The notes beneath the pieces are model-generated. The model did not search any database. It was not told the origin of the DNA and worked only from the letters and a program-made list of their open reading frames with translations. A stretch of DNA of 56,473 bases from Candidatus Eiseniibacteriota bacterium. GTDB lineage: Bacteria > Eisenbacteria > RBG-16-71-46. Position 1 is the first letter of the stretch. The number at the start of each line of letters is the position of its first letter. A program made the translations under genes and the position numbers. Below, piece by piece: positions 30,381 through 35,082 of the stretch. The stretch is from the NCBI GenBank assembly GCA_025357055.1, contig JANXPZ010000131.1, positions 1-56,473 of the forward strand, in the 5' to 3' direction.

Positions 30381-30582
30381 GCTTTCCGGCAGGGGACGCC
30401 GCTTCCCGGGAAGACTTTTCCGTCTGACCCCGTTCGCCGTCTCCAGCCGCGACCGATCCTTCCGCCCCGCTCCAGCCCGCGGTCACCCGCCTCCAGCGCA
30501 ACCGATGGCCCCCGCGCGAGATAGCCGGTCCAGACCGTCGCCTGCCCTTCCCGGTCATCAACTCCGTTTCCGCCGGACACGT

Positions 30583-30598
30583 TGGTACGGCCGTTGCT
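30583..30598 (+). promoter_or_regulatory. sigma54 promoter of the fliL operon
   Basis: TGGTAC-N5-TTGCT with GG and GC 10 bases apart, one mismatch in the -24 box. The transcript would start about 60 bases before the fliL ATG. Confidence 0.72.
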
Positions 30599-30671
30599 CA
30601 ATGCAAGGTCGGACTTCCGGTGTCTGTGCCGGCGTCCCCCCACGAAGCCAGATCCGGACACGAGGCGCCCC

Positions 30672-31433
30672 ATGAGCGAAGAGCCCAAGAAGGACCCGAA
30701 GCCGACCGCCGATGGAGCCGCGGGCGCCGCCCCGGGTGCAGCCGACGCGAAGGCGCCGGCCAAGGGTGGGGCCGCGGCCCAGGAAGCAGAAACGGCCGCC
30801 GGCAAGGACGAGGACAAGAAGAAGAACGAGGAGAAGAAGAAGGACAAGGGCAAGGACAAGGACAAGGACAAGAAGAAGGGCAAGGAATCAGGAGAGGAGA
30901 AGGCTCCCGCCAAGCCGTTCAAGATCCCCGAGCCCGCCCTCCTGGCGGCCACGATCGTGGCCGCGTTGACCGTCGGCTCGCTGCTCGGGGGCCTGCTCAT
31001 CGCGCCGAAGGTCATCGCGGCGCGGAACGCACGGCCCGCGGCTCCGGCCCGGACGGAAGCGGCCGAAGAGGGTGGCGGAGCACCGGAAGCCGAAGGCAAG
31101 AAGGGCGGAGGCAAGAAGGGCGAAGGAGAGAAGTCCGCCGTCTACAGCATCGACAACATCGTCGTGAACCCCGCCGGCTCGGCCGGCACCCGCTTCCTCA
31201 TGGCCAGCGTGGCTTTCGAGCTGCCCGACGAGAAGGCGGTCGAACTGTTGCGCGAGAAAGAGGTCCAGATCCGTGACGCGGTGATCGCCACGCTCGAGAG
31301 CCAGACGCTGGAGATGCTCGCGGCCCCCGGGTCGCGCGAGGTCATCAAGCGGCAGCTCGCCGTCGCCGTCAAGTCGTTCGTGCCCGGCCACCGGCAGCTG
31401 CGCGTCTACCTGCCGCAGTTCGTCCTCCAGTAG
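30672..31433 (+). CDS. fliL: stator-supporting membrane protein FliL with long Lys-rich N-terminus
   Basis: FliL surrounds and stabilises the MotAB stator. The 253-residue product is longer than the usual 150-180 because of a cytoplasmic extension. Residues about 45-75 are almost all Lys, Glu and Asp. The membrane helix is near 87-112 (LLAATIVAALTVGSLLGGLL). The periplasmic FliL domain has YSIDNIVVNPAGSAGTRFLM, then ELLREKEVQIRDAVIATLES. It ends GHRQLRVYLPQFVLQ, as FliL proteins do. The start is the MSEEPKKD ATG; its ribosome binding site is weak. Confidence 0.92.
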   Translation: MSEEPKKDPKPTADGAAGAAPGAADAKAPAKGGAAAQEAETAAGKDEDKKKNEEKKKDKGKDKDKDKKKGKESGEEKAPAKPFKIPEPALLAATIVAALTVGSLLGGLLIAPKVIAARNARPAAPARTEAAEEGGGAPEAEGKKGGGKKGEGEKSAVYSIDNIVVNPAGSAGTRFLMASVAFELPDEKAVELLREKEVQIRDAVIATLESQTLEMLAAPGSREVIKRQLAVAVKSFVPGHRQLRVYLPQFVLQ

Positions 31434-31441
31434 GGGCCGCG

Positions 31442-32464
31442 ATGTCACAGACGCTCACTCAGAAAGAGATCGACCTCCTCCTCTGCGGCACGGCGTCGCT
31501 CAGTCCGTCGCAGACGAACGAGCCCATCGCCGCGGCGGAGATCGTCGCGTACAACTTCATGAGGCCCCCCCGGGTCAACAAGGACCGCCGCTCCACGCTG
31601 GAGTCGATCCACACGCGGTTCGCGCTCTCCATGCAGGCGATGCTCACCTCGCGCCTGCGCACGCCCATCGACCTGGTGCTGAGCAGCGTCGAGCAGGCCA
31701 ACTTCTCGGAGTTCATCCTCTCCCTCGCCTCTCCCTGTGCCGCCTACGTGTTCAAGATCGGCGACCGGCTGGGAAGCCAGGGGGTCATCGACTTCAGCAC
31801 GGACGTCGCCTACCACCTGGTGGACCGGATGTTCGGTGGGCCCGGCGAGCCCTGCGAGATCCGCCGCAGCCTCACCACGCTCGAGCAGACGGTCGTCCGC
31901 GGCATGGCCGACCGCGGGGTCGGCCTGCTGCGGGACGCCTGGCAGGGCCAGCTCGCGATGAATCCCGAGGTGGTCCTGTTCGAGTCCATCCCGGACATGC
32001 TGCAGATCACGAGCCGTGAGGACACCGTCCTGCTGATGACGTTCGAGATGCGCACGGGCGGCTTCAACGGCTTCATCACCATCTGCCTGCCGATGGGCAT
32101 CATCGAGCAGTCGCTGCAGAGCCGGCAGGCTGCCCGGCAGCTCCAGTCCCGCGGGGGTGGCGCGGACGTGAGCGGCGCCCGCGCGCTCGTCGAGGCCAGT
32201 CTCAAGACCGCCCAGCTCGTGCTGCAGGCGCGCCTGCCGGTCTTCCGGCTCAGCGCCCGCGACGTCAACAACCTCCAGGTCGGTCAGGTCATCCAGGCCG
32301 GGCTCCTCCTGGACGTTCCCGTCGAGGTCCTTGTCAACGGCCGGGTCAGCTACCTGGGTTCCCTGGGTCAGCAGCGCCGGCGAGTCTGTCTTCGCATCAC
32401 TCATCCGGTCACGACCTCGGTCACCGAGCGGTCGGAGCATGACCGGCAGGGGAGAGTGCTATGA
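31442..32464 (+). CDS. fliM: motor switch protein FliM
   Basis: C-ring component and receptor for phospho-CheY. The 340 residues begin with TLTQKEIDLLLCG, the counterpart of the CheY-binding LSQDEIDALL peptide. The middle domain contains TRFALSMQAMLTSRLRTPID, FIITICLP-like sequence (GFNGFITICLPMGIIEQSL), and the C-terminal FliN-like domain has VLQARLPVFRLSARDVNNLQ. The chemotaxis operon carrying cheY is in the same window. Confidence 0.95.
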   Translation: MSQTLTQKEIDLLLCGTASLSPSQTNEPIAAAEIVAYNFMRPPRVNKDRRSTLESIHTRFALSMQAMLTSRLRTPIDLVLSSVEQANFSEFILSLASPCAAYVFKIGDRLGSQGVIDFSTDVAYHLVDRMFGGPGEPCEIRRSLTTLEQTVVRGMADRGVGLLRDAWQGQLAMNPEVVLFESIPDMLQITSREDTVLLMTFEMRTGGFNGFITICLPMGIIEQSLQSRQAARQLQSRGGGADVSGARALVEASLKTAQLVLQARLPVFRLSARDVNNLQVGQVIQAGLLLDVPVEVLVNGRVSYLGSLGQQRRRVCLRITHPVTTSVTERSEHDRQGRVL

Positions 32465-32793
32465 GCCCAGTCGAAGCCCAGAAGATCCCGGAGCCGGCTC
32501 CGCAGGACCTCACCGTGGTCGGCCGCGCCGAGAGCGCGGCGACGCTCGACGCGCTGCTCGACGTCTCGATGCCCATCGTGATCGAGATCGGGCGCGCCCA
32601 GATGACGGTCCAGGAAGTCCTGCAGCTCGGCGCCGGTTCGGTCATCCAGCTCGATCGCATCGTGGGCGAGCCCGTGGACATCTACGTGAGCGACCGGCGT
32701 CTGGCGCAGGGCGAGGTCGTGGTGGTGGGCGAGTACTTCGGCGTGCGCATCACCCGCGTGCTGGTGAACCAGGGCGTCGAGAGCGCCGCGTGA
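32461..32793 (+). CDS. fliN: motor switch protein FliN
   Basis: Lower C-ring component, with FliM and FliG. 110 residues, with the SpoA-fold pattern LLDVSMPIVIEIGRAQMTVQ, EVLQLGAGSVIQLDRIVGEP and VDIYVSDRRLAQGEVVVVGE. The ATG overlaps the fliM stop, and the stop overlaps the GTG of the fused fliOP gene. Confidence 0.95.
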   Translation: MSPVEAQKIPEPAPQDLTVVGRAESAATLDALLDVSMPIVIEIGRAQMTVQEVLQLGAGSVIQLDRIVGEPVDIYVSDRRLAQGEVVVVGEYFGVRITRVLVNQGVESAA

Positions 32794-34010
32794 TCACCTC
32801 CGGCTTCATCGGGGTGCTCGGCGCGCTGGCCGCCACGATCGGCGTGCTCGTGCTCGCGCTCCGGATGGTCCAGCGCATGCAGGGCGGTGTCTCCCAGACC
32901 GGTCGCGGCGTCACCCTGCGCGTCCTGCAGCGCGTCCCGCTCGGGCCCCGGCAGGGGCTCGCGGTCGTGCAGGTCGCCGACCGGGTGCTCCTGGTCTCCC
33001 TGGCCGAGGGCGGAACCCGGCTGCTGACCGAACTCGAAGGGCCCGCACGCGACCAGCTGCTGGAGTCCGAGACCGAGCGCCGCGCCGCGCCGTTCGGGCG
33101 GCCCTGGCGGCTGCCCTTCCTGGGTCGCGTCGCGCTCGTGCTGATGCTGCTCGGTGCCCCGCTGGCGGTTCACGCCCAGACCTCCGCACCCGCGCCCGCG
33201 CCGCGCGCGGCTGCCGCGGGACCGGCGCTGACGGCCCGGCCGGTCGTGAAGCGCGCTGCCGTCTCCGCCGCGATCCCGGCGCCCGCGACGCGCGGCCCGG
33301 CGTCCAAGACGCCCGCCGTCCTGTTCGGCGGCCCGGCGGCGCCCCGGATGGAGGTCCGTATCGGAGAGGGACGCGACGCCCTGCAGCTCTCGGGGGCGGT
33401 GGGCCTGGTCGTGTTCATCGGCGTGCTCACGCTGCTGCCCGCGATGTTCCTGCTCATGACCAGCTTCACCCGCATCCTCATCGTGCTCCACTTCCTGCGG
33501 TCCGCGCTCGGCACCCAGACCGTTCCGCCCAACCAGCTGCTCGTGGCCCTCACCGTGCTGCTCACCGGCGTGGTCATGAACCCGGTGCTCCAGCAGGCGA
33601 ACCGCGAGGCGCTCCAGCCCTACTTCAACGGGCAGATGACCCAGGTGCAGGCCTACGAGCAGGGCGTCAAGCCGTTCCGCGAGTTCATGCTGGCGAACAC
33701 GCGCGAGCAGGACCTGACCCTCTTCACCGAGTTGAGCCACGCCTCGGACGTCAAGTCCGTCGAGGATCTCCCCATCTTCGTCGTGGTCTCCGCGTTCGTG
33801 ACCAGCGAGCTGCGCACGTCGTTCCAGATGGGCTTCGTGATCTTCCTGCCCTTCGTCGTCGTGGACATCATCGTGGCCTCGGTGCTCATGAGCCTCGGCA
33901 TGTTCATGCTGCCGCCGGTGATGATCTCGCTCCCGCTCAAGCTCCTCCTCTTCGTGCTCGCCGACGGCTGGACGCTGGTGGTCCAGAGCCTCGTCGCGAG
34001 CTTCCGGTAG
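32790..34010 (+). CDS. fliOP: FliO-FliP fusion, export gate protein
   Basis: One uninterrupted 406-codon frame. Residues 1-107 are FliO-like: a membrane helix (GFIGVLGALAATIGVLVLAL) and the cytoplasmic FliO domain LRVLQRVPLGPRQGLAVVQV then ADRVLLVSLAEGGTRLL. From about residue 108 a second hydrophobic segment, LPFLGRVALVLMLLGAPLAV plus HAQ, resembles the cleavable signal of FliP. A Pro/Ala linker follows, then FliP proper (about 190-406) with LLMTSFTRILIVLHFLRSAL, GTQTVPPNQLLVALTVLLTG and VVDIIVASVLMSLGMFMLPP. No stop or good start separates the parts. FliO normally is a separate chaperone for FliP assembly. GTG start overlaps the fliN stop. Confidence 0.88.
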   Translation: MITSGFIGVLGALAATIGVLVLALRMVQRMQGGVSQTGRGVTLRVLQRVPLGPRQGLAVVQVADRVLLVSLAEGGTRLLTELEGPARDQLLESETERRAAPFGRPWRLPFLGRVALVLMLLGAPLAVHAQTSAPAPAPRAAAAGPALTARPVVKRAAVSAAIPAPATRGPASKTPAVLFGGPAAPRMEVRIGEGRDALQLSGAVGLVVFIGVLTLLPAMFLLMTSFTRILIVLHFLRSALGTQTVPPNQLLVALTVLLTGVVMNPVLQQANREALQPYFNGQMTQVQAYEQGVKPFREFMLANTREQDLTLFTELSHASDVKSVEDLPIFVVVSAFVTSELRTSFQMGFVIFLPFVVVDIIVASVLMSLGMFMLPPVMISLPLKLLLFVLADGWTLVVQSLVASFR

Positions 34011-34015
34011 ACCGC

Positions 34016-34285
34016 ATGTCCTCCACCCTCGCCGTGGAGCTCATCCGCCAGGCCCTCACCGTGGCGCTGCTGGTGGCGGCCCCGCTGCTCATCACCTCGC
34101 TCGCCGTGGGCATCCTGGTGAGCCTGATCCAGGCCGTGACGCAGATCCAGGAGCAGACCCTGACCTTCATCCCGAAGCTGCTCGCGATGGCGGCCGTCTT
34201 CGTGATCCTCCTGCCGTGGTCGCTCTCCCAGCTGGTCCAGTACCTGGTCGGCGTGCTGCAGAGCTTCCCGACGTTGGCCTCCTGA
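34016..34285 (+). CDS. fliQ: export gate protein FliQ
   Basis: Two-helix subunit of the FliPQR gate. 89 residues with family pattern LIRQALTVALLVAAPLLITS, GILVSLIQAVTQIQEQTLTF and IPKLLAMAAVFVILLPWSLS. The stop overlaps the fliR ATG. Confidence 0.96.
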   Translation: MSSTLAVELIRQALTVALLVAAPLLITSLAVGILVSLIQAVTQIQEQTLTFIPKLLAMAAVFVILLPWSLSQLVQYLVGVLQSFPTLAS

Positions 34286-35082
34286 TGCCCGACTTCCTCG
34301 AGCAGGTCCTGGCCCCGGGGCGCTGGCCCGCCTTCGTGCTCGTCTCGGCGCGGCTCTCGGGGCTGATGCTCACGGCCCCGCTCTGGTCCATGACGAATCT
34401 GCCGGCGCGCGCGCGGGCGGCCATCACCGTGCTGCTCTCGATCGTGCTGCTGCCGTCGGTGCCCGTCATGAGACTGCCCGACGAGCTGCTCGCGCTGCCC
34501 CTGCCGTTCGCGCTGGAGATGGTCGTGGGGATCGTCATCGGCCTCACCGCCGCCATCCTCGTGCAGGGCGTCGCGCTGGCCGGCGAGATCATCTCGCTCC
34601 AGATGGGCCTGTCCCTGGCGCCGCAGCTCGCGCCCATGCCCGACCTGCAGGTCTCGGGCATCGGGCTGGTCCTGAGCAACCTCGTGCTGCTCATCTACGT
34701 GGGCATCGGCGGGCACCTCATGCTGCTGCGGGGGCTGGCGGACAGTCTCCAGACGCTGCCGCCCGGCCAGCCCATGGACCTGACCGGCGGCCGGGACGCC
34801 GTCCTGGCGGCGGGGGCCGTGTTCCGCTGCGCGCTGAGCGCGGCGGCGCCGGTGATGGTGACCCTGCTGCTCGCCGAGCTCTCGGTCGCGCTCCTGAGCC
34901 GCGCCGTGCCGCAGATCAACGCGATGATGATCTCGTTCCCGATCGCGATCGGGGTCGGCCTGGTCATGACCGGCGCCGCCCTGCCCTTCCTGGCCACGAG
35001 CATCGAGGGCTGGATGCACCAGCTTCCCGGCAGCGTGGTCACTCTCCTGGGGGCGCTGCAGGCCGCCCCGGCAGGACCCTGA
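34285..35082 (+). CDS. fliR: export gate protein FliR
   Basis: Polytopic subunit of the FliPQR gate, 265 residues with about six membrane segments. Typical stretches are LVSARLSGLMLTAPLWS, PLPFALEMVVGIVIGLTAAI, and GEIISLQMGLSLAPQLAP. The C-terminal region has LAELSVALLSRAVPQINAMM. The ATG sits in the fliQ stop (TGATG). Confidence 0.95.
   Translation: MPDFLEQVLAPGRWPAFVLVSARLSGLMLTAPLWSMTNLPARARAAITVLLSIVLLPSVPVMRLPDELLALPLPFALEMVVGIVIGLTAAILVQGVALAGEIISLQMGLSLAPQLAPMPDLQVSGIGLVLSNLVLLIYVGIGGHLMLLRGLADSLQTLPPGQPMDLTGGRDAVLAAGAVFRCALSAAAPVMVTLLLAELSVALLSRAVPQINAMMISFPIAIGVGLVMTGAALPFLATSIEGWMHQLPGSVVTLLGALQAAPAGP

Follow-up and report, generated by a model that had tools for sequence, protein, structure and literature searches.

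A single gene for FliO and FliP

The window, that is, the whole stretch of 56,473 nucleotides that was analysed, contains a flagellar gene cluster in which FliO and FliP are encoded by one gene, fliOP (32790..34010, + strand). This gene has 406 codons and reads in order through a FliO domain, an internal signal-peptide-like segment, a linker and FliP; its frame runs from a GTG start at 32790 to a TAG stop at 34008-34010 with no stop inside. The start overlaps the stop codon of fliN (32461..32793, +) as GTGA, an arrangement found likewise in G009, G016, G018 and G025. Immediately 3' of fliOP lies fliQ (34016..34285, +, identified by Pfam), followed by fliR (34276..35082, +), whose start we set at 34276, with an in-frame GTG upstream at 34216. 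On the 5' side the cluster holds a rod protein gene, fliE, fliF, fliG, fliH, fliI, fliJ, flgD, flgE, fliL, fliM and fliN, and on the 3' side fliQ, fliR, flhB, flhA, flhF-like and flhG-like genes, a sigma factor gene, two rod-protein genes, flgH, flgI and flgK, some of these names being assigned from Pfam family and gene order. The surroundings of fliOP are those of an ordinary flagellar cluster. When the whole genome, a draft in 234 contigs, was searched with profiles, fliOP was the only match to FliP and also the only match to FliO.

The N-terminal part of the product has the layout of FliO, a transmembrane helix followed by a small cytoplasmic beta domain, as judged from hydropathy and a predicted model. 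The helix spans approximately residues 6-25 (32805..32864, +; KD19 2.56; helix 3-30 in the model) and is predicted to lie N-out/C-in. The FliO domain PF04347 covers residues 27-99 (32868..33086, +) with an E-value of 9.5e-12 and 45.3 bits against a cut-off of 22, while the FliO equivalog TIGR03500 of NCBIfam scores 43.9-46.9 bits, under its cut-off of 55.25. An AlphaFold model of FliOP, which has a mean pLDDT of 57.7 and served for local secondary structure only, places a four-stranded beta core at residues 43-82 (block pLDDT 73-82), with strands at 43-50, 56-62, 65-72 and 75-82.

The signal-peptide-like segment VALVLMLLGAPLAVHA occupies residues 114-129 (33129..33176, +) and ends in a predicted signal peptidase I motif, VHA129|Q130. 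Beyond it, an Ala/Pro-rich periplasmic linker, residues 130-186 (33177..33347, +), is variable among relatives and has pLDDT below 50. A short beta hairpin, MEVRIGEGRDALQLSG, residues 187-202 (33348..33395, +; model strands 188-191 and 198-201), stands ahead of FliP helix 1, and from this matching position we infer that it is the homologue of the beta-cap hairpin of Salmonella FliP. The FliP core PF00813 is complete at residues 210-401 (33417..33992, +), with an E-value of 1.6e-74 and 250.5 bits (cut-off 26.9). The best NCBIfam match is TIGR01103 fliP, at 251.3 bits above a cut-off of 217.45; the yscR equivalog reaches 169.5, under its cut-off of 208.6, and the broader subfamily model NF009438 passes its cut-off of 179 with 190.7. 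Both the flagellar operon and the best NCBIfam model show that this FliP is of the flagellar, not the injectisome, type.

Among the neighbouring genes, fliL (30582-31433, +) encodes an unusually long N-terminal extension, approximately 110 residues ahead of the membrane helix and mostly made up of KDEDKKKNEEKKKDKGKDKDKDKKKGKESGEEK, a run rich in Lys, Asp and Glu; Pfam places the FliL domain at residues 187-283 only.

Distribution of the fusion

The first-pass annotation had read positions 32790-34010 as a FliO-FliP fusion in one frame and had proposed a profile search with a count of relatives. Both PF04347 and PF00813 are matched by the 406-residue protein, and the fusion recurs in eight further species, so that FliO shares a frame with FliP in nine species instead of being a separate single-pass protein. 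The window genome was placed in the Gemmatimonadota, a lineage of soil and water bacteria, by its nearest named relatives. When relatives were searched with the whole protein, G009, G005, G018 and G016, all of the window's family, matched in frame over the full length, as did L027 and L028, two Gemmatimonadetes/Gemmatimonadales MAGs among the named GTDB records; G025, from another family of the same class, is fused as well. In G003 the fusion is split across contig ends, but both ends encode one stretch of about 40 residues (LLARLQATPAPAAMLAQKL...), and we therefore read it as one frame. Seven of the eight further species can be aligned in full to FliOP, at 55-64% identity, and the nine include every FliP-positive genome of the window's family, six in all.

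Overall, 14 of 47 Gemmatimonadota genomes were FliP-positive, seven of them fused (counting G003) and seven unfused (families f2, f6, f9 and f10); G019 and G036, in which the FliO frame leaves its contig, stand outside this count. According to the first-pass annotation, relatives with two separate genes at the same spacing would have spoken against the fusion. Instead, the close relatives are fused, and in the distant ones, all seven of the unfused genomes, FliO and FliP lie in different frames, mostly with the stop of FliO near or overlapping a start of FliP, as in the ATGA of G042 and the GTGA of G028.

Outside the phylum, we compared 77 loci, 45 from named records and 32 from four other phyla, using a FliO profile built for the purpose. 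The 32 were picked nearly all for long FliP frames, with L100 as a short-frame comparison; the underlying searches yielded 413 FliP-positive genomes, of which long frames only were read and, for one search, those among the matches listed. In 65 of these loci no FliO was detected in the FliP frame at E 0.01, and the further 12 gave nothing better than E 0.13, while five fused controls gave an in-frame FliO at 1e-29 or better. A separate upstream ORF with FliO was found at 59 of the 77 loci. The long FliP frames met elsewhere (329-480 aa) are shadow frames rather than fusions, any FliO detected there being in another ORF. One genus of another phylum (G448, G450 and G452; loci L097-L099) appeared to be a second fusion, since its FliP frames run to 343-347 aa, compared with 241-243 in its siblings, but the extension is not FliO.

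Three minor observations came from the same searches. In that small-genome phylum, L097-L099 carry, upstream of FliP, an in-frame open stretch of about 100 residues that their siblings do not have, including a SIAKNL-FF stretch that resembles a translated repeat. Seven genomes of family f5 (G023, G027, G030, G033, G035, G037 and G039) have FliO Pfam matches above the cut-off and no FliP match; they carry FliO-like genes but no export gate, a situation reported for some non-flagellated species (PMC12403147). Finally, in the phylum of G054, most of 46 genomes have two or three FliP-family genes, the best scoring approximately 230-255 bits and the others approximately 70-195, which suggests that a single genome holds several type III secretion systems.

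Coding evidence at the junction

The junction between the two domains is open in every fusion. Simple shuffles of each junction would be open with probability 0.08-0.52, giving a joint probability of about 8e-5 over eight genomes, a figure that precedes any requirement of a shared frame and ignores common ancestry. In the window, codon-position GC across the junction is 0.83/0.69/0.92, with the high value at the third position that characterises the coding frame, as in DNA translated in that frame. These data bear on the concern, raised in the first-pass annotation, that a sequencing error hides a stop here. With 234 contigs the window genome is of draft quality, and a lost stop or a frameshift could join two normal genes. 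Against such an assembly or sequencing artefact, the junction is open and the frame shared in eight further species, from independent assemblies, and their FliP proteins form one clade; we regard the artefact as having a negligible probability.

It had also been noted that no internal start with a ribosome binding site is visible, and our scan bears this out. Between the FliO core and the predicted site, the only ATG, GTG or TTG codons in the window gene are GTG117 and ATG119, 13 and 11 residues ahead of the site, with Shine-Dalgarno matches of 3/6 and 2/6. By the same scan, no start in the window gene could supply FliP with a complete signal peptide. If FliP were nevertheless also made from an internal or non-canonical start in the junction, the long frame would be a read-through product of little use. 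In-frame candidates do exist 19-35 residues ahead of the site in three other fusions (ATG108/ATG113 in G016, TTG112 in G005 and TTG106 in L028), and non-canonical codons such as CTG are conceivable. However, these candidates are not conserved among the fusions, those of the window have just 11-13 residues before the site, lack a positive n-region and show a Shine-Dalgarno match of at most 3/6, and it would be left without explanation why nine species lost the fliO stop. We therefore consider an internal start improbable.

A conserved candidate cleavage site

The suggestion of an internal signal-like segment, cut near residue 130, held up well in the comparison of fusions. The site was called on FliOP from motif, conservation and hydropathy combined. 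All nine fusions have an AxA-type candidate site at the end of the segment: VHA|Q in the window, then ASA|Q, ASA|Q, ASA|M, ALA|Q, SSA|Q, SAA|Q, ALA|Q and VLA|Q. In eight of the nine the residue at +1 is Gln (binomial P 1.8e-10 against a background of 4.6% Gln, with relatedness ignored, although the fused rows have shared ancestry). In an eight-row alignment of the fusions, A129 is the sole invariant residue between E81/L82 and P136, which makes VHA129|Q130 the likely site. Since AxA motifs arise by chance in Ala/Ser-rich segments, the argument is carried by the conserved Gln at +1 and the invariant A129.

Other features of the segment resemble a signal peptide. Its N-flank is positive, with a stretch of net charge +3 in the window gene, and the uncharged run before the site is 16 residues long there and 16-24 across the fusions. 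In the eight complete fusions the KD19 of the internal segment (1.56-2.33) is always lower than that of the FliO helix (2.38-2.68). A signal peptidase I gene was found in the window genome. In other words, the signal peptide expected at the N-terminus of FliP appears to be present but internal, with a conserved AxA|Q site at which it would be cut, and an internal signal peptide whose site is conserved in relatives is what a polyprotein processed by signal peptidase would be expected to show. Cleavage at the site would give a FliO part of 13.7 kDa and a mature FliP of 29.7 kDa, as predicted masses, from an uncut FliOP of 43.3 kDa.

A probable processed precursor for the export gate

Based on these sequence comparisons, fliOP is probably the gene for a polyprotein of the flagellar export gate that acts in cis and is processed by proteolysis. 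FliO would be translated first, its N-terminal helix inserting in the membrane and leaving the beta domain on the cytoplasmic side. The segment that was once the FliP signal peptide and has become internal (approximately residues 114-129) would insert second with its positive N-flank cytoplasmic, and signal peptidase I would cut after A129 to release a FliO of about 13.7 kDa and a mature FliP of about 29.7 kDa beginning at Gln130. The old signal peptide would stay on the released FliO and give it a second membrane segment, while FliO and FliP would be made 1:1, side by side, ahead of FliP5-FliR assembly. Insertion, cleavage, the fate of the remnant and any advantage in assembly are what we infer; helper and client, FliO and FliP, would probably be synthesised in equal quantity before being separated. 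The comparison with Salmonella fits this topology. FliO there is N-out/C-in (PMC2947984) and ends in the cytoplasm, so that a FliP signal peptide can follow directly with topology kept, and the signal peptide of Salmonella FliP is cut at A21|Q22 during insertion (PMC12403130; PMC2947984).

The other possible fate is that FliOP remains uncleaved or partly cleaved, so that in the finished gate FliO would be bound covalently to each FliP by way of another transmembrane helix and a linker that is flexible and periplasmic. The linker from site to hairpin has 20-74 residues in the eight complete fusions, which exceeds that of the unfused Gemmatimonadota and makes such a tether sterically conceivable, and in four fusions (G016, G018, G025 and G003) the uncharged run, at 20-24 residues, is of helix length. 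Despite this, the conserved AxA|Q site argues against a tether, and long linkers also occur in unfused FliP of other phyla (for example, L057, L065 and L101). Linker length is thus no mark of tethering, and we dropped it as specific evidence. In Salmonella, moreover, the mature FliP N-termini form a beta-cap at the gate tip (PMC12403130) and the completed gate is reported to lack FliO (PMC5542437, PMC7911332), so that, by this comparison, five tethered FliO would crowd the gate tip. We judge an uncleaved or partly cleaved FliOP unlikely, and find it equally doubtful that FliO is a lasting, membrane-tethered part of the gate, with up to five FliO domains on the cytoplasmic side of five FliP. 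If it were, a former assembly chaperone would have turned into a gate component.

The first-pass annotation held that either fate changes how the gate assembles, which overstates the case. With the site cut, topology and mature FliP would be essentially conventional, and the changes would be 1:1 synthesis in cis and an extra membrane segment on FliO. The assembled gate would be altered in the uncleaved form only, and the sequence evidence makes that form the less likely one.

Comparison with known systems

FliO assists flagellar assembly almost universally, and both its stoichiometry and the stage at which it acts are matters of debate. The Bradyrhizobium fbcH product is a cytochrome b/c1 precursor with an internal signal sequence that has been shown experimentally to be cut by signal peptidase. 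As proposed for FliOP, a membrane protein and a downstream protein are joined there through an internal signal sequence, and the working principle would be the same; the proteins are unrelated, and processing is experimental in that case but inferred in ours. Clostridia have a joined gene for FliR and FlhB, again two export-gate proteins in one chain. The partners differ, and both are lasting components of the gate, whereas the FliO of FliOP is an assembly factor. In C. difficile, flhB is listed as a 'bifunctional flagellar biosynthesis protein' (PMC10889297).

The closest comparison is with Salmonella, where FliO aids FliP stability and FliP-FliR assembly, and where the same two domains are found with the same order, operon place and topology (PMC2947984, PMC5542437, PMC5542435, PMC12403130). 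The FliP signal peptide is cut there between Ala and Gln, as predicted for FliOP. However, Salmonella has two genes and two proteins, while in FliOP there is one frame, and the FliP signal peptide is internal with FliO upstream. A 2025 survey of more than 30,000 genomes describes FliO variants with AMIN or LysM domains (PMC12403147). In these variants, too, the architecture of FliO differs by lineage within a conserved gate, but they add extracytoplasmic domains, whereas in FliOP the partner joined to FliO is its client. No FliO-FliP fusion is mentioned in the main text of the survey (PMC12403147). We found neither such a fusion nor a Gemmatimonas fliP in the open literature searched, and we claim no priority. 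The persistence of the fusion across genera indicates that 1:1 synthesis in cis is tolerated and perhaps favoured. The fusion is also a ready genetic tool: with a single cleavage site blocked, it could reveal whether the gate works while FliO remains on FliP.

Origin of the fusion

In a tree of FliP cores, the nine fused proteins form one clade with support 100/100, on a long stem and apart from the unfused Gemmatimonadota; judging from this tree, the fusion probably arose once. The long stem might be taken for a consequence of the fusion, but FlhA splits in the same way, with 65-73% identity inside the fused group against 40-49% outside it (long alignments). The stem is thus a sign that this flagellar lineage has diverged, for which the fusion is not needed as a cause, and we rejected that reading as unsupported. 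The simplest route to the fusion would have been a frame change at an overlapping or adjacent fliO stop and fliP start, as found in the unfused relatives. The flagellar system does not simply follow taxonomy. For example, the FliP of G025 (L008), a genome of a different family and of lower GC3, nests among the fused FliP of the window's family, while that of G020 (L009), from the window's own order, is unfused and distant; transfer or differential loss is possible. Separately, the flhA of G016 (G016:C208:8234-10417) contains one in-frame TAG, possibly a pseudogene or an assembly error.
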